Positions 1,010-16,041 of a stretch of DNA of 22,427 bases are shown here, piece after piece (the stretch's first letter is position 1; each line of letters opens with the position of its first letter). The stretch spans positions 1 to 22,427 of the IMG/VR virus record IMGVR_UViG_3300005081_000021, one strand, 5' to 3'. The notes beneath the pieces were generated by a model that searched no databases, was not told the origin of the DNA, and saw only the letters and a list, made by a program, of their open reading frames with translations. Made by a program: the position numbers and the translations under genes. This stretch comes from a virus.

Positions 1010-2425
1010 TCACAGGATGGCATGCGCAGGGTGGCCGATGCCAACGACCGCACTGACCTGGTAGACGGCGACGCGCACGGATGGCTGCGTACTTCCGAAG
1101 TCGGCTACCTGCTCGGCTGCGGTGTAGATCGCCTCAGGGCTGGACACCGTTATGGTGCGCCGTATCGCCCCGGTGGCGTCGAGCACATGGACCATGTATC
1201 TCTCCTCGGCCTCTCCCAGCGGTATTTCTGACACACCGCGCCAGTCGAGAGCCTTGCGACTACGCCTGCGCCAGCGGATCGTGAGGTCGCCAGCGGCGTT
1301 TCTCTCGCCGCGCAGGTGCACAGGCGAGAACGGCCGTAGGCTATTGCCTGTCGGCGTGTAGTACTGTCCGGTGACCGAGCCGAGCGTTGCGGTGCTGCGC
1401 AGGCTGAGCGCTTTGACCATCACGGTGCGCCCCAGTGACGTAGATACGGTAGCGGGTACGGCGTTGGATAGCATGTAGAACGTCTCCGTACTGCCGTGCG
1501 TACCGATGGCGTGCTCGGTACCTCGGACGCCGCGCTGAAGGCCCGAGAGGATATACGAGCCGTCGGGCTGTAGGTGAGCGTTGAGGAAGCGAATCATCTC
1601 GCCGCCCAGCAGCGCCGTGTTGGCGCCGTTGAACAGCGCCAGGCTGGTTGTGGATTCGAGCGTCGCCGTGCAGTCGCTCACTGGATACACCCTGATGGTG
1701 TGCGCCCAGTCCATGACGGCGGGGTCTGCCGCTTCGAGCGGCTGATACACCGTGCCGACGAACCCACCGGCACTGCTCGTCAGTATCGCCTCATAGGTCG
1801 CCCCCTCATCGAACGACCGGTAGTACTCTGCGCCGCTCCAGCCCGCCTTCTTGACGGCCAGCACGTAGCCGTCTAATCCGCCGTGATAAGCGCTCACGAG
1901 TGGGCAGTCGAGCACGTAGAAGGTCGTCTCCGGGACGACCACGACGTTAACGGTGCGCGGCGGGCTCGGTGTGTACACCGCCGAGTAGCTGAAAATCTCC
2001 GGGTCGTGCTCGGACAGCACCATCTTCACGACGCCGCGCGGGTCGTAGGACATGTCCGTGATGATGTAGGTGCGCGCGCTGCCGTCGATGTCGAGCATCA
2101 AAACATCGCCGGGGTCATATTGCAGATAGGGACGAGGCAGGAACACGGTGTACTTCACCCGGCCGAGCCGCTCGAGGTAGAGCAGCCGGTCCGCCAGTGT
2201 CTTGGCCTGGTCGCGCGTCGTGACCATGTTGACATTGACGTGCACGTCTTTCGGCTCTTCGCCCTGGACCTGCGCGATCACGACATTGGGGGCGTGTCCA
2301 AGGTCGCGGTCGATGAAGCGCAGAAACAGGCGCGATGGCGTCTCCGTCTGGCTGCGCACGACGCGCGTGATGCGCGGCGGCGCTTGCTCGCCGTAGGGCC
2401 GGGCTGCAAGGTCATGGTCAAGCAT
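1010..2425 (-). CDS. megatron tail tip protein, C-terminal part (separate gene)
   Basis: This 471-aa protein looks like the C-terminal half of the long GTA-type megatron protein. It begins MLDHDLAARPYGEQ and continues with RLFLRFIDRDLGHAPNVVIA, then DRLLYLERLGRVKYTVFLP and YDPGDVLML, the tail-hub-like segment that in relatives is in one chain with the N-terminal domain. Later parts include VVPETTFYVLDCPLVS, a GMIRFLNA-like beta region (GGEMIRFLNAHL), SGLQRGVRGTEHAIGTH, and a fibronectin-like C-terminus from about residue 365. The start ATG at 2425 has AGGTGG seven bases upstream and overlaps the previous gene by 8 bases. It lacks the hydrophobic Gly-rich N-terminus found in the genes at 5966 and 6868, so it must assemble with a separately made N-terminal protein. 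Confidence 0.8.
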   Translation of the reverse strand: MLDHDLAARPYGEQAPPRITRVVRSQTETPSRLFLRFIDRDLGHAPNVVIAQVQGEEPKDVHVNVNMVTTRDQAKTLADRLLYLERLGRVKYTVFLPRPYLQYDPGDVLMLDIDGSARTYIITDMSYDPRGVVKMVLSEHDPEIFSYSAVYTPSPPRTVNVVVVPETTFYVLDCPLVSAYHGGLDGYVLAVKKAGWSGAEYYRSFDEGATYEAILTSSAGGFVGTVYQPLEAADPAVMDWAHTIRVYPVSDCTATLESTTSLALFNGANTALLGGEMIRFLNAHLQPDGSYILSGLQRGVRGTEHAIGTHGSTETFYMLSNAVPATVSTSLGRTVMVKALSLRSTATLGSVTGQYYTPTGNSLRPFSPVHLRGERNAAGDLTIRWRRRSRKALDWRGVSEIPLGEAEERYMVHVLDATGAIRRTITVSSPEAIYTAAEQVADFGSTQPSVRVAVYQVSAVVGIGHPAHAIL

Positions 2426-5400
2426 GTCGGGTCCACCTGCTCAAAAAGAGGTCGCTGCCGTCGATCCAGGATCGAATCTTGGCCGCGTCCATGCCAAGGG
2501 CGGCGATGATGGCGCTGCCGTATTTTAGCAGTTCAGCAAGCGTGATGATGATCTCGGCGTGCCAGAATATCCACCACTCGGTCTCATCGGGGCGAGCAGA
2601 CCAGCTACCCTCCATTTGACCAGACGTGACGTATCTGGCATCGAGATAGGCGTAACCACGAGCAAGCAGCGGGCGCGTGAGATGGCGCAGGCTGTCGTCC
2701 GCCAGGTCTGCGTAGAGCGCCGCGCGCATGAAAAGCGCGACCATGTGCGGCTCGTGGTAGTTGCCGTAGGCCGCCGCTGCGTAGTGGTAGCCGTCGCACC
2801 GCCACTCGATGTCGCCGTCGATCACCGTGGCCCCCAAGGTGAGCGGCCAGGCGGGCTCCGTCGTGCCGGACACGCCGTTGCGTAGGCAACGGTAGACGAA
2901 GCCGTTTTTGCCAGCCGATGGACGCACGAAGTCGATTGCGGCGTTGTAGGAGCCGGTCTTGTAGCGCGTCGCGGGCTGCCAGCTCGGTATTGCTGCGGGG
3001 AAGTCCGTCGGCGGGAACAGCGCGTGGCTGGTCCATTCACGGTTGAGCCAGCCAAGGTAGTCGGCCACGATCTGACGCGCCACAGGGCTGCCGCTCAGCC
3101 ACAGGTAGTGGGCGGCCGACTGCAACGCGCGGTATTGGTAGCCGCCCCACTGGGAGTTCGGGTCGACCCAGTTGAAACCCCAGGTGTTGGCCGGTCCGTA
3201 CTCGACTTCTTCCGGGCGGTCGCGGTAGTAGGCGTGGATGAATGGCCCCAGGTCGCCCAGCCGCGCTTGATACTCGAGCTGAGCGTCGCGCAAAAACTGG
3301 GCTTGGGCTTGCGCTCGCCCGTGGTCGCCGAGCTTTTGCCAGACGTGCGGGTATGTATAGCCGGCACCGGGGGACCCACGCCAATCGATGAGTGTGTCGC
3401 GCAGCATGTTTGCGGTATAGGGCGGTGCGTGCGGGTACTCGATCGGCACCTCGGGATAGGGCCTGATGCGCCGAATCGTGAGCGTGCACTCGACCTCTTG
3501 AAAGACCGAGACCCCCACCGCATAGAGGTCCGGGTTGTGGTCGAGCGCCGGGCCGGTCACTTGGTCTCGGAGGAAGAAGTCCCCTCTTTCCAGGTCGAAG
3601 GTTTGCACCCCCGTACCAGCCAAAGAGACCAGGGCGTAGTACCGCGTGCTTGGCGAGTATGTCGGCGCCGTGTCGAGCCAGACATAGACCTCGACGGGGG
3701 CGCTTGCGCCAATTTCGACCCGCACCGTGTCGCTGTCGTTGCGCCAGCGATCCAGAATGCCGCGGCCGAACTGCACCTCGCCTGCTCGCCCGGGGATATA
3801 GACAGTGACGTTGCCGTCGCTGTCGCGCAGAAAGCTGCTCAAATCGACGCCCTGGCGATCGGAGTTTGCGAACGTGCCGTCCAGCGAAAACGCGCTGTCG
3901 GAGATGTGCGGCCGTATCCAGTTGCGGCCGTCGTCCACTGCGTGCGTGACGACGAGCGAATGGGCGTTGGCGGCCCGCGCCTTGGCCCACTTCGGATCAG
4001 CCGTGATGGCGTACAGGCTTTCGTATGCGTCGTCGGCCCAATACAGGGAGTCCACGGCGCAGTCCACCTCGCCCTCGGCCGTCTCGCGCCAGTGCGGCCA
4101 TGCCTCGTAGCGCCCGCCCACCTCGAGCCACGGGCCGACCTCCGTGAGGGTGTAGGCAAGCACCACATACCGGTCGATCTCGGGATCGTATCCGGGCGGC
4201 TTTGATAGCATCACCCGCAGCCCATGCCCAGGCACGTATTCGGTGCCGATCACGTCGTAGGTCCAGCCTTGCAGCGTCGGCTCGTTGACCATGTACTCAA
4301 CCGATTGGAGCGCCGCGACGTTGTCGTAAACAGTCCAGTACCATGCACGCCGGATCGCCGCCAGATAGCTCATGTTGATGGGCGCTCCGGCGATGTATTC
4401 CCACACCTTGGCCATGGTGCTGCGGTATGCCTGGTCGATGCGTTTGACGCGCTCGCCGTAATGCCCTGGCCCATCGGGAATGAAGCCTTCCAGGTGCCCG
4501 CCCGCGTCCACCACGCGCAGCTTGTAGTAGTCTTGATGGCTTTCAAGCTGGATCGGGCGTTTGGCATTGACGAGCCAATGCGGAATCCAGAGCTCCGGGC
4601 TGTCCGGCACCGGCCGGCCGTAGTAGATCGGCTCTAGGGCGCTGGCCAGCAGATCGGCTCGATCGCGCCATGTCTGTGCGCCCGTGACCTCATAGGCAAG
4701 GCAGCAGGCGTGGATCGCGGTGAACTGCCCCTCGCTCGTGCCACTCGACGAGGAAAAATAGCCGTCGCGCCCCAGGATGTCATGCATGGAGTTGACGACG
4801 ATGCCGCGCTCCGAGATGGCGCATGTTTGCTCATGCAACCGCAGGCGCAGCGGCTGGGGAAGTCGCAGGAAGGCGAGTTTGCCGTCGCGCTCTTGCACCA
4901 CGAAGGCGGACGCGCTCATGATGTCGGCGATGACGGAGGACGCCGGTTTGGGTTGAGAGACGAGATAGCCGATGACCTCATCCGTCATCTCGGTCATGTC
5001 CAATCGGTCCAGCGGGAGCCCGCCGCGGCGAGACAGGTCGCCCAAAATCTCGTACAGCTTGACTGGCACCGGGTTGGCCCAGTGACTGACGGGCGGCTCA
5101 TTGCCCACGTCGTTGATTCGCCACTCGGGCGCTTGACCCGGCGTTTGATAGTGGACAAAAAAATCGTAGGTCTCGCCGTCGGGTAGTGGCGGTGGAGGCG
5201 GTATGTCAGCCTCATAGCGCTGCCGTGGGTGCGGGTAGGTATTGACGATCTGGTGGCCGCGCGAGATGACCTCGACCTCGACATCCGGCACCGTCCACGT
5301 TTCGTATTTTTGGACGATGATGTCCTTGAACACCAGATAGGCCCGCCCTCGGTAGGCGGGCGTTTGTGCCGCTCCCAGATGCGCTTGTATCGTAGGGCTT

Positions 5401-5966
5401 GGCATCTGATCCTCCGTGCCGAGATAAATCTCGACATGAAGCTGCTGTGAGGTGTAGCCGATCGCGGGCTTGCTCCAGCGCCGGCGGTCGTAGGCGAGCT
5501 TGCCACCCAGCCAGATGCGGCTCACCCCTGCAATCTCTCCTTCGCAGATCAGGACGGCAAAATCGACTGCGTGCGCCTCGACCTGCTCGGTCTGAATGAT
5601 CGTCTCCGTCTGGTCGCCCACGATGTCCAATTCCTGCGGCACATCGATGGTGACGGGGCGAAACTCGCTCATCCACAGCAATTGCCCCGCGACACGCGCG
5701 AGCCCGTACACGATCGGTATGGGCGCGCCGTACTCGGACAGCGGGACGACCGGCACTTGATCGGCGGCGCGCCGGTCGGTGGCCCGCAACGGCGCGCGCG
5801 TGTCTCGACTCGTCAAGGCGCGCATGACATGGGCGTCAATCATGCTGCCAAGGCTATAGCCGACGAGCCGCCCCACCATGCCAGCGATGGGCGCGGCCAC
5901 CGTCCCGGTCTGGAACAGCGACGCGGCAGCAGTCGAGAAGACGGCAGATAAGGCGATGCTGGCCAT
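2418..5966 (-). CDS. chimeric tail tip protein: duplicated megatron N-domain fused to alpha/alpha-toroid-like enzyme region
   Basis: The protein is 1182 aa. Residues 1-235 and 300-366 match the domain order of its upstream neighbour: hydrophobic N-terminus, VPLSEYGAPIPIVYG, DFAVLICEGEI, IYLGTEDQ, AYRGRAYLVF, then IGYLVSQPKPAS. A proline run sits at 255-262. Residues about 395-1170 are unrelated to standard tail proteins. They hold several helical hairpins typical of six-hairpin glycosidase or lyase folds (about 411-446, 640-675, 940-978, 1070-1111, 1131-1160), a beta-rich block (about 690-835) and a short adhesin-like motif (995-1056, PSWQPATRYKTGSY to GDIEWRCDG). I infer a tip-mounted polysaccharide-binding or cleaving enzyme; the exact family and active site are not recognised. 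The start overlaps the previous stop (TGATG), with a weak AAGGGG ten bases upstream. Confidence 0.75.
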   Translation of the reverse strand: MASIALSAVFSTAAASLFQTGTVAAPIAGMVGRLVGYSLGSMIDAHVMRALTSRDTRAPLRATDRRAADQVPVVPLSEYGAPIPIVYGLARVAGQLLWMSEFRPVTIDVPQELDIVGDQTETIIQTEQVEAHAVDFAVLICEGEIAGVSRIWLGGKLAYDRRRWSKPAIGYTSQQLHVEIYLGTEDQMPSPTIQAHLGAAQTPAYRGRAYLVFKDIIVQKYETWTVPDVEVEVISRGHQIVNTYPHPRQRYEADIPPPPPLPDGETYDFFVHYQTPGQAPEWRINDVGNEPPVSHWANPVPVKLYEILGDLSRRGGLPLDRLDMTEMTDEVIGYLVSQPKPASSVIADIMSASAFVVQERDGKLAFLRLPQPLRLRLHEQTCAISERGIVVNSMHDILGRDGYFSSSSGTSEGQFTAIHACCLAYEVTGAQTWRDRADLLASALEPIYYGRPVPDSPELWIPHWLVNAKRPIQLESHQDYYKLRVVDAGGHLEGFIPDGPGHYGERVKRIDQAYRSTMAKVWEYIAGAPINMSYLAAIRRAWYWTVYDNVAALQSVEYMVNEPTLQGWTYDVIGTEYVPGHGLRVMLSKPPGYDPEIDRYVVLAYTLTEVGPWLEVGGRYEAWPHWRETAEGEVDCAVDSLYWADDAYESLYAITADPKWAKARAANAHSLVVTHAVDDGRNWIRPHISDSAFSLDGTFANSDRQGVDLSSFLRDSDGNVTVYIPGRAGEVQFGRGILDRWRNDSDTVRVEIGASAPVEVYVWLDTAPTYSPSTRYYALVSLAGTGVQTFDLERGDFFLRDQVTGPALDHNPDLYAVGVSVFQEVECTLTIRRIRPYPEVPIEYPHAPPYTANMLRDTLIDWRGSPGAGYTYPHVWQKLGDHGRAQAQAQFLRDAQLEYQARLGDLGPFIHAYYRDRPEEVEYGPANTWGFNWVDPNSQWGGYQYRALQSAAHYLWLSGSPVARQIVADYLGWLNREWTSHALFPPTDFPAAIPSWQPATRYKTGSYNAAIDFVRPSAGKNGFVYRCLRNGVSGTTEPAWPLTLGATVIDGDIEWRCDGYHYAAAAYGNYHEPHMVALFMRAALYADLADDSLRHLTRPLLARGYAYLDARYVTSGQMEGSWSARPDETEWWIFWHAEIIITLAELLKYGSAIIAALGMDAAKIRSWIDGSDLFLSRWTRHA
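5328..5357. repeat. 30-bp exact repeat, copy in chimeric tail gene
   Basis: This stretch is identical over 30 bases to 6251-6280, 923 bp away in direct orientation. It codes for AYRGRAYLVF within the duplicated megatron N-terminal domain (residues 204-213 of the 1182-aa protein). Identity at the DNA level, not only the protein level, suggests either relatively recent duplication or gene conversion between the two copies. Confidence 0.9.
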
Positions 5967-6868
5967 CAGTCGAATGCCCCTTGGCGGACCTTGATCGCGC
6001 CATCGGTCTCGCTCACGGTGAAATAGGCGACACGCTGGAGTTCTTCGATGGTGGCGCGCGCCGCGGATACGTTGACGAGATAGCCCAGCATACCAACATC
6101 GGGCAAGGGGTCCACATGAACGCGGCTTGACGGCATCCCGGCGGCGCGCATCACATCGTCGACGACGGCGCTCAGGGTGGACGGCTCCGCCCTGACGACG
6201 GCGCTGACCTCGGGTATGCGGTTGCCGAAGAGTTCGAGCGGCACGTCAACGAACACCAGATAGGCCCGCCCTCGGTAGGCCGGTGCGAGCGCTGCACCTA
6301 CATCGGCCTGGATGTCCGTGTCTGGTGTCTGGCTTTCCGTGCCAAGGTAAACCTTGACGTGTTCGCTGACGAATTCCGGCGTAGCCAGTTTGCCTGCCAG
6401 GTAAATGGCGCCGACCTCTTCGATCGGGCCTTGGCACAGCAGCACGGCAAAGTCGGCGTAATACTTGTAGTCCACGCGGCGTATTTCCGACGTGACGGTC
6501 GAACTGCTCTTGCCCTGTTTGACCTTGGTAGTGCTGGTACCGATGCTCTCCGTGACGCGCTCGCGCACTTGGGACGCCCAGATGAGCTGACCTGGCACCC
6601 TAGCCGTGCCGTACACCCTCGGAATCGATACCCCGTATTCGGTGATTGGCACGAGATTGGTCTGCCCCAGTCTCGGGCCGTACACGGTGGTCGATGAGCT
6701 TGCCACACCACCACCAACCAGCGCCGGGAACAGATAGGCGCTATCGATGTAGGAGCCGACCATCAAGCCGATCGTGCCGCCTATGGTGGCCGCCGATATC
6801 CCCAGAATCGTGCCGCCAATGCTTGCGCCGATGCTCGCGCCGACGTACGCCAGTGCTACTGTTGCCAT
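5966..6868 (-). CDS. megatron tail tip protein, N-terminal part (separate gene)
   Basis: This 300-aa protein corresponds to the N-terminal section of GTA-type megatron (lambda gpJ-equivalent) proteins. It has a Gly/Ala/Ile-rich hydrophobic segment at 1-55, NLVPITEYGVSIPRVYG at 71-87, RVPGQLIWAS at 90-99, ADFAVLLCQGPIEEV at 138-152, KVYLGTESQTPD at 172-183, PAYRGRAYLVF at 196-206 and a domain ending FTVSETDGAIKVRQGAFD at the stop. In intact relatives this is followed directly by the sequence that here begins the gene at 2425. I chose ATG 6868 because the protein then begins MATVALAYVG, as relatives do; an upstream ATG at 6907 would overlap the NlpC gene by 52 bases. The overlap with that gene's stop is 13 bases. 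Spacing and order place it at the tail tip. Confidence 0.8.
   Translation of the reverse strand: MATVALAYVGASIGASIGGTILGISAATIGGTIGLMVGSYIDSAYLFPALVGGGVASSSTTVYGPRLGQTNLVPITEYGVSIPRVYGTARVPGQLIWASQVRERVTESIGTSTTKVKQGKSSSTVTSEIRRVDYKYYADFAVLLCQGPIEEVGAIYLAGKLATPEFVSEHVKVYLGTESQTPDTDIQADVGAALAPAYRGRAYLVFVDVPLELFGNRIPEVSAVVRAEPSTLSAVVDDVMRAAGMPSSRVHVDPLPDVGMLGYLVNVSAARATIEELQRVAYFTVSETDGAIKVRQGAFD
6251..6280. repeat. 30-bp exact repeat, copy in megatron N-terminal gene
   Basis: This is the partner of 5328-5357, identical over 30 bases, coding for AYRGRAYLVF at residues 197-206 of the 300-aa megatron N-terminal protein. The flanking sequence diverges immediately on the right side (GGG versus CGG) while the encoded proteins stay similar. 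Confidence 0.9.
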
Positions 6869-14753: not shown

Positions 14754-15040
14754 TACACTCTCGCAAGCTTAGCAATAGACTCGGAACCATCGCGCACCTG
14801 CCGCACTTCGCGCACACGGTAAGACTGTCCTGCTATCTCGACAGTGTCCCCAGGCGACAGAGCCAACCGCACAGTTGGAAACTCGATCTCGTAGTCGCGC
14901 GAGAGCGCCAGACCGTCCAACACCGTTTCGTCAGGGGCGCGAAAGTTGCAATCTACAGTCAGCGCCCCGAACTTAACTGGTGTTAGCAGCCCGGCGCGGG
15001 CGGCCGCATCATATAGTGCGCCAACGTCCATCACCATCAT
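14753..15040 (-). CDS. head-tail joining protein (lambda gpFII-like)
   Basis: The 95-aa protein has a short N-terminal helix (MDVGALYDAAARAGLLTPV) followed by a beta-rich body: FGALTVDCNFRAPDETVLDG, DYEIEFPTVRLALSPGD and VEIAGQSYRVREVRQVRDGS. This is the pattern of small head-tail attachment proteins of the gpFII type, which bind under the portal/gpW complex. It directly follows the major capsid gene and overlaps it by four bases (ATGA). Three ATG codons occur among the first four codons, so the exact start could be 15040, 15037 or 15031. It is shorter than lambda gpFII (117 aa). Function is assigned from pattern plus gene order. Confidence 0.72.
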   Translation of the reverse strand: MMVMDVGALYDAAARAGLLTPVKFGALTVDCNFRAPDETVLDGLALSRDYEIEFPTVRLALSPGDTVEIAGQSYRVREVRQVRDGSESIAKLARV

Positions 15041-16041
15041 GCCATCGTCAGCTTAACCAGCACGCCCGGCCGATGACACATCGGCAGCGGGTTGCTTTGA
15101 GTGTGCAGGTCGGTACCACGGTCGAACTTGCGCGGTTCCTGTTTAGCATAAAGCGGCTGTCCTAACGTGTTGACCGTTTCATTAAAGTCCGCCGGCGCGA
15201 AGTAGGTAGCGAAGGTGTCGACCGTGCCCAGCGGGAAGGCGTGGGCCTCGCCCGCGGCGATGAAGCGGCGCACGTTGCCGTTGGCGTCGGTGGCCTGACC
15301 ACGATACTCCTCGAAGGTAATGCCGCCGAAGACGAAGCCTGCTCGCATGTCCGCTCGTAGAGCCAATCCGTCCTGCCACCGCTGATAGGCTTCTTCGACG
15401 TTCGGATGATTCGTAAGCGCGTCGAAAAATTCAGGCGAGCACAGGCAGTGCACGCCCGTCGAGAATTCGCCCATCAGGTTATCCTCGATATGACGCACAA
15501 CCTCCATGCACTTGGCCTTTACTTTTGTGGCTGTGTCTCCGAGTGCGAAGTTCACGGTTTCTGGCGCTATGCCGAACTCGGCGTAGAGGTCGACCAGCAC
15601 GGCGCCGTCTGCATCGAGGATTTGGCCCTTAAGCGCGCCCATGCGAAGGTGCTCCAAGGTGATTGCGTGCTTATTGCGCATGGCCTCCAAGTGCCGTGCC
15701 AGCACGCCAGCGACCGCTTCCATTTCCGTTTCGGAGCCGAATGCACGAATGCCCTGCACTTCCTCTGGCAGTACGACGTCGTCGTACGGGATGTGTGGAA
15801 TGACAAAGGAGCGCAGATTGCGCGTGCCGCGCTCGCCAACAGTGCCCGGCGAACCGAGCGGTTTCGTTGGCAAGAGTGTCAGCTTGCCCGCATACTCCTC
15901 AACGATGATATGCCGGGTGCGTACCGGCTTGGCAGGGAACACATTGAGCTGCTCCAGCCGCCCGTAGCGGTTCGGGATAAGATTAATGGCGGCGGTGAGA
16001 CTCGCCATCGAGAAGCCGGGATTGTCGAACGGATTTTGCAT
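15037..16041 (-). CDS. major capsid protein (lambda gpE-like)
   Basis: The 334-aa protein belongs to the Phage_cap_E family. Visible signatures are NPFDNPGFSMASLTAAINLI at the start, NRYGRLEQLNVFPAKPVRTR, GERGTRNLRSFVIPHIPYDD, then RNKHAITLEHLRMGALKGQI, EVVRHIEDNLMGEF, FGGITFEEYRGQ and GEAHAFPLGTVDTFATYFAP near the end. Length equals that of lambda gpE (341 aa). It forms the icosahedral shell after assembly on the scaffold and processing by the S49 protease. GGAG lies eight bases before ATG 16041. A 30-base gap separates it from the decoration gene; I see no terminator there. Confidence 0.95.
   Translation of the reverse strand: MQNPFDNPGFSMASLTAAINLIPNRYGRLEQLNVFPAKPVRTRHIIVEEYAGKLTLLPTKPLGSPGTVGERGTRNLRSFVIPHIPYDDVVLPEEVQGIRAFGSETEMEAVAGVLARHLEAMRNKHAITLEHLRMGALKGQILDADGAVLVDLYAEFGIAPETVNFALGDTATKVKAKCMEVVRHIEDNLMGEFSTGVHCLCSPEFFDALTNHPNVEEAYQRWQDGLALRADMRAGFVFGGITFEEYRGQATDANGNVRRFIAAGEAHAFPLGTVDTFATYFAPADFNETVNTLGQPLYAKQEPRKFDRGTDLHTQSNPLPMCHRPGVLVKLTMA

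Follow-up and report, generated by a model that had tools for sequence, protein, structure and literature searches.

An IMG/VR virus record supplied the window analyzed here, a stretch of DNA of 22,427 bases. Three of its genes, here called A, B, and C, all lie on the minus strand, and as an earlier sequence-only reading of this DNA had stated, they are intact open reading frames that overlap one another by 1 and 8 bases. These megatron genes are placed after genes for a tape measure protein, a distal tail protein, a hub protein, and an NlpC/P60 peptidase, of which the tape measure and hub were assigned by NCBIfam and the distal tail protein and peptidase by position and order only. Gene A ends in IKVRQGAFD, and gene C begins MLDHDLAARPYGEQ. 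Elsewhere in the window, the major capsid protein encoded at 15037-16041 is 70-73% identical to the capsid proteins of Wolbachia phage WO, and by this identity a WO-like capsid gene and a GTA-like tail are combined in one phage.

Table 1. Positions of the three genes and of their assigned or predicted parts in the window
Feature	Position	Strand	Description
Gene A	5966..6868	(-)	300 aa; ORF; megatron N-part with iris/penetration, adhesin-like, and first half of central domain
A residues 1-226	6191..6868	(-)	Iris/penetration helix region and adhesin-like domain (copy 1); names per PMC7296036
A residues 227-300	5969..6190	(-)	First half of central domain; stops where R7M-type chains carry an insert
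A/B junction	5966..5968	(-)	A stop overlaps B start codon by 1 base (TGATG); identical in contigs L006 and L007
Gene B	2418..5966	(-)	1182 aa; second megatron N-part plus ≈780-aa insert; ends where central domain would resume
B residues 1-236	5259..5966	(-)	Iris/penetration and adhesin-like domain (copy 2); 37% identity to A, profile positions 1-203
B residues 297-375	4842..5078	(-)	First half of central domain; Phage-tail_3 profile positions 1-32
B residues 376-1182	2421..4841	(-)	Large insert; also in R7M-type megatrons and in structural proteins of Klebsiella, Salmonella, and other phages
B residues 699-834	3465..3872	(-)	Predicted β-sandwich; low-confidence model, pLDDT about 45-75 here
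B/C overlap	2418..2425	(-)	8 bases, ATGCTTGA
Gene C	1010..2425	(-)	471 aa; megatron C-part with second half of central domain and fiber-binding domain
C residues 1-150	1976..2425	(-)	Second half of central domain; PF13550 positions 51-161
C residues 151-471	1013..1975	(-)	Fiber-binding domain; from Rcc01698_C and PDB alignment

A Shine-Dalgarno-like AGGTGG occurs at 2433-2438, 7 nt 5′ of the start codon of C, and the start regions of both B and C, including this site, are conserved between the window and its relatives. The overlap of B and C sits in a 127-bp run (2358-2484) that is the longest stretch of identical DNA shared with the 92%-identical contig L007; this invariant run could reflect extra constraint on the translation of C or a recent recombination. 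A programmed frameshift that fuses B and C is not supported, as C has a Shine-Dalgarno-like site of its own and its frame is closed 5 codons upstream. We rejected an intron or intein between A and C, since B occupies the entire gap and overlaps both neighbors; an Rfam search of the window matched no RNA family of any kind, introns included.

Genes A and B encode two diverged megatron N-parts

Profile and structure-database matches confirm that A, B, and C jointly encode a GTA-type megatron baseplate protein, in which A and B are diverged paralogues of the N-terminal iris/adhesin domain and C is the remainder. On the 1299-position NCBIfam GTA_megatron profile, A covers positions 1-202, B positions 1-203, and C positions 845-1298. 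The NF048004 equivalog cut-off, which is set at 800 bits for one chain, is reached by none of them (A, 188.9 bits; B, 143.0 bits; C, 232.5 bits), and we regard the chains as homologous to NF048004 in parts, with no single chain a member. The N-termini of A and B both match PDB 6tba, and A additionally matches residues 1-213 of PDB 8gtc_M (E 9.5e-34), which identifies them as iris/adhesin domains. The two align with each other at 37% identity over 239 aa and 122 bits, compared with at most 23.9 bits for 50 shuffled A sequences. Moreover, all five motif blocks by which a second version of the N-terminal domain had been recognized in B occur once each in A and in B. PF13547 (GTA_TIM barrel) gave no match in A, B, or C; it is also absent from the megatrons of the phages R7M and S20, and the TIM barrel is thus not universal.

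The break lies inside the central domain

For RcGTA and R4C, the central domain has been described as the part docked onto the distal tail protein; the iris/penetration helices at the N-terminus shut the channel, and the fibers are attached to the C-terminal domain (PMC7296036, PMC10276861). Residues 14-124 of C match positions 51-161 of PF13550 (Phage-tail_3), and residues 223-316 match positions 3-97 of PF23666 (Rcc01698_C), both over the cut-off; against PDB 6tba, C matches residues 896-1297. Positions 1-32 of PF13550 are found in B, below the cut-off, such that a family that is continuous in S20 (residues 256-401) is divided in the window between B and C. Against a profile made from the first central-domain half of single-chain relatives, A scores 24.5 bits (residues 231-296) and B 35 bits (residues 302-368), and the second half is present in C only.

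An AlphaFold model of the single-chain relative L112 (pLDDT 76) has a fold that matches the RcGTA megatron 6tba_8A (TMt 0.70), R4C 8gtc, and the hub proteins of T5 and lambda. In this model, the joint is at residue 328, in a loop that follows a β-hairpin, inside the domain of residues 263-472 and beside a poorly ordered stretch (341-347). Because PF13550 is divided between B and C and the joint maps to an intradomain loop, the break is within a domain and not, as the sequence-only reading had it, at a domain boundary. It follows that A and B each carry the first half of a domain that only C completes. The break point is also the site of the large insert in R7M-type megatrons, and the insert of B starts where A stops. 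Since both A and B retain the half-domain that is needed, the most economical view is that each of them pairs with C and that the tip is a mixture.

The insert of gene B is probably carbohydrate-active

The ≈780-aa insert of B corresponds to the extra domain that one of the two copies had been said to carry. Gene B matches PHROG 2871 and 4271, and a Pfam search of its insert matched no family. AlphaFold gave a poor model for B (pLDDT 46, built on six sequences), whose secondary structure suggests a helical insert interrupted by a β-sandwich. Foldseek returned many weak matches of this β-sandwich to carbohydrate-binding module (CBM) families, which at TMt 0.4-0.5 serve as leads only. Judging from the model, residues 699-834 are possibly a carbohydrate-binding module, and the insert is probably a carbohydrate-active domain of sugar-degrading appearance.

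Each N-chain is collinear with a single-chain megatron when joined to C

Placed end to end, A (300 residues) and C (471 residues) run straight through the single-chain 772-aa megatron of Tetraselmis viridis virus S20, with ≈4 residues missing at the joint, and the start of C retains the DLAA motif present in S20. The contention that the A and C sequences are adjacent in single-chain relatives is thereby borne out. B and C are likewise collinear with Alteromonas phage R7M gp40, which is one chain of 1528 aa (B 79-1166 aligns with 28-1050 and C 19-465 with 1082-1522), and the collinearity includes the ≈780-aa insert, which is homologous and at the same site. B is 30-33% identical to R7M gp40 residues 28-1050 and to residues 82-1024 of the R9Y2 megatron. 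The alignments to single-chain megatrons that had been proposed thus pair A+C with S20 and B+C with R7M and R9Y2, in addition to the matches of the parts to RcGTA 6tba. Since A+C equals a plain S20 megatron and B+C an R7M-type megatron, each N-chain together with C makes up a complete known protein.

The expectation that close relatives would have these parts as one chain held for distant relatives only: those at ≈30-35% identity are consistently one chain, whereas the only close relatives found share the split and none of them is a single chain. All other R7M-type loci (L026-L031) are single-chain, and a scan of genome contigs gave only one R7M-like locus. L031 (PBFM01000045.1) is filed under a Neomarinimicrobiota MAG and has a megatron of the R7M/R9Y Alteromonas phage type; it is probably a misbinned phage contig.

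The three-gene layout is conserved and under purifying selection

A search for the same layout elsewhere, as had been suggested, found the three genes intact and with the same overlaps in two further IMG/VR contigs, L006 (98-100% amino acid identity) and L007 (90-92%), which rules out an assembly artefact. Between the window and L007, the one divergent pair on which our selection estimates mainly rest, dN/dS is 0.19 for A, 0.23 for B, and 0.26 for C. These values and the conserved starts rule out pseudogenes, and the values, together with the layout conserved in three contigs, agree with the view of a working arrangement rather than decay. The half-domains themselves have accumulated fewer nonsynonymous changes than expected under neutrality (A, p = 0.024; B, p = 3e-4; C, p = 2e-4). 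Their dN/dS values are 0.35 in A, where 11 of 21 changes are nonsynonymous, 0.14 in B, and 0.15 in C; the difference between A and B is not significant (p = 0.33).

These data bear on a non-adaptive history of fission and duplication, in which breakage of the chain was neutral and the surplus copy is passively retained or decaying. Megatron ORFs are sporadically split elsewhere (L081, L097, L166), as such a history would have it. Nevertheless, the overlaps are identical in three contigs, purifying selection acts on all three genes, the Shine-Dalgarno-like sites of B and C are conserved along with their junctions, and A and B are so diverged, with a path length of about 2.2-2.6 changes per column in two N-domain trees, that a passive copy would be gone. 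We consider this history very improbable, and the constraint on A already disfavors it.

Additional N-domain genes recur in other phages

We surveyed megatron loci twice to place this layout among others. The first survey, of A-like matches and reference phages, comprised 81 single-chain loci; the exceptions were the window clade, two single-stop splits, the tandem megatrons of Caulobacter phage CcrPW, and truncated or frameshifted contigs. In the second, which covered C-like loci, 57 of 76 were single-chain. The two surveys share a few contigs and give about 135 one-chain loci combined. Several apparent splits are not comparable to that of the window: L081 and L097 each have a single in-frame stop, L042 is a frameshift of a normal megatron, and L139 and L173 show overlapping frames that are probably sequence errors. 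L173 (4714-9238) is broken near the same point of the central domain with a frame overlap of 41 bp, which is probably an indel error and could be a second true split. L166 (4983-9256) is split between an N-domain part (500-aa ORF) and a central and C-terminal part (913-aa ORF), with a short gap.

Thirteen loci of the second survey have a standalone N-domain gene of ≈210 aa upstream of, and mostly directly adjacent to, a complete megatron with its own N-domain. A dedicated scan for such solo genes yielded 41 loci, 40 of them newly retrieved. In 38 of these 40, another N-domain ORF follows downstream and the solo ORF stops one residue past the N-domain; the remaining two are cut by the contig end. 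Solo genes, each comprising the iris and adhesin parts, occur in L140-L149, L151, L152, L156, and L197-L235. Solo and full N-domain copies are 48-56% identical, and dN/dS of close pairs indicates the same constraint on both (0.055-0.073 for solo and 0.040-0.066 for full copies). A different arrangement is seen in L124 (2502-9700), where two complete megatron genes (1307- and 1133-aa ORFs) with sister N-domains stand in tandem, as in CcrPW.

The solo genes are pertinent to the main rival of a C-chain shared by A and B, namely that the megatron body consists of B and C alone, as the two pieces of an R7M-type chain, with A acting as an accessory N-domain subunit that forms a second iris/adhesin ring or a cap and is not paired with C. 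Solo genes directly upstream of complete megatrons are found on at least 38 contigs (a count of contigs, some from shared samples, and not of independent lineages), in the A-like position between peptidase and megatron; the half-domain of A is also weaker than that of B, and B+C is collinear with R7M. An accessory N-domain, however, would not need the 74 central-domain residues that A keeps to the exact break and under constraint (p = 0.024), and the solo genes of other phages end right after the N-domain. On balance, this alternative strikes us as possible but doubtful.

Phylogeny of the N-domains leaves two orders of events

In an N-domain tree of 56 rows, A and B of the window are sisters (99/94), as are the clades of solo and full copies of the L140 type (100/99), the L124 megatron pair (100/100), and the CcrPW pair (100/99). 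By these sister pairs, the N-domain has duplicated independently at least four times. A and B are also sisters in a smaller, earlier N-domain tree (88/76), and both trees support the duplication that the sequence-only reading had proposed. In the smaller tree, A+B and the R7M group are neighbors with moderate support (94/91), and an AU test did not reject a grouping of B with R7M (p = 0.215). C falls in a clade with S20, R7M, and CcrPW/Mwe-JY26 (100/100). Given this moderate support and the AU result, either B may have been inserted into an A-C chain or A may have been duplicated from an R7M-type chain.

The first of these orders could be taken further, to a plain S20-like A-C ancestor in which B is a cassette inserted at the loop; the hub would then consist of A and C only, and B would be an enzyme-bearing decoration that docks via its N-domain. 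The near-seamless fit of A+C to S20, the DLAA motif kept at the start of C, and the AU test are in line with this. Against it, both N-domain trees recover A and B as sisters, the half central domain of B is conserved at least as well as that of A, and R7M-type chains show the insert, N-part, and C-part working in one chain. We therefore regard this reading as unlikely.

Discussion

In our preferred reading, to which we assign a probability of roughly 0.5, one megatron-type hub is built from the chains A, B, and C, with C as the shared partner of both A and B, and the tip mixes armed and unarmed subunits. C would give the second half of the central domain, for tail docking, and the fiber-binding domain. 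The N-chain, be it A or B, would complete C with the iris/penetration helix, the adhesin-like domain, and the first half of the central domain, and B would additionally bring the large, probably carbohydrate-active insert at the break. Translation would proceed stepwise, coupled via the overlapping stop and start codons. By cryo-EM, the tips of RcGTA and R4C each contain three megatrons (PMC7296036, PMC10276861); here, the threefold tip would be heteromeric, with three copies of C and a mix of plain (A) and armed (B) N-chains, and the A:B ratio would set both the number of insert domains and the composition of the iris. Our inferences from the comparisons above are the pairing of C with both A and B, their mixed stoichiometry, and what the insert does. 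The half-domains kept in A and B, a second half found only in C, and the constraint on all three argue for a shared partner, as does the independent origin of separate or tandem second N-domains in other phages. Conversely, A may not pair with C, as its half-domain scores lower and is less constrained than that of B, and the extra chain of the solo-gene phages lacks a half central domain, which would also allow an accessory role without C.

Among the closest known systems are the RcGTA megatron Rcc01698 (gp15) and the R4C megatron (PDB 6tba, 6teh, 8gtc), which share with the window the N-terminal iris/adhesin, central, and fiber-binding domains and the same gene neighborhood (tape measure, distal tail, hub, NlpC/P60 peptidase, megatron, fiber). 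Each is a single chain in which a TIM-barrel peripheral domain separates the adhesin and central domains, whereas the window has three chains, two N-domains, a different insert inside the central domain, and no TIM barrel. R7M gp40 and the R9Y1-3 megatrons have the same insert in the same place, and B+C is collinear with them over ≈1500 residues at 28-33% identity, but they are single chains of 1509-1528 aa with a single N-domain, and their much shorter N-terminus lacks the long, glycine-rich iris segment present in A and B. The S20 megatron and its relatives L112-L116, to which A+C aligns throughout, are also one chain and have neither insert nor second N-domain. Phages of the solo-gene type (L140/L148/L197-L235) resemble the window in that another N-domain is encoded by its own gene immediately upstream, where A is located; in these, by contrast, the solo gene has no half central domain, the downstream megatron is unbroken, and the duplication is independent. 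In CcrPW, the N-domain is duplicated in tandem megatrons as in the window, but both copies (1198 and 1196 aa) are complete chains.

Hub subunits that are spread over several polypeptides include T4 gp27/gp5, as compared with the single-chain VgrG. To our knowledge, the breaks in the hubs of T4 and lambda lie between domains, and each chain is present once. The window differs in that one domain is itself interrupted and a single partner appears to be common to two alternative chains. The lambda tail hub is likewise distributed over gpJ, gpL, and gpI (PMC13243795). Our literature search found no account of duplicated or split megatrons. Hubs of several polypeptides are thus already known, and what appears new is that one domain is divided between a common C-chain and two N-chains that are alternatives to each other, and that solo N-domain genes recur. 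The recurrence of extra front-part copies in unrelated phages suggests tips built from mixed subunits. More tentatively, one C-chain may serve two alternative N-chains by split-domain completion, giving variable armed and unarmed tips, and together with the solo genes, heteromeric iris/adhesin rings may be a general, unrecognized design of GTA-type tips.

The megatron is the closing gate of the tail channel and probably also makes up the outer-membrane pore. If a second, diverged N-domain is repeatedly added as a gene of its own, the gate may be a mixed ring instead of three identical helices, a point on which the RcGTA and R4C cryo-EM maps are silent, since both have a single megatron gene. 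The window goes a step further, in that a domain is cut in two and one half is offered by two different chains. It would therefore provide a natural system for how a tail tip tolerates both fission and a large enzyme domain carried on only some of its subunits.
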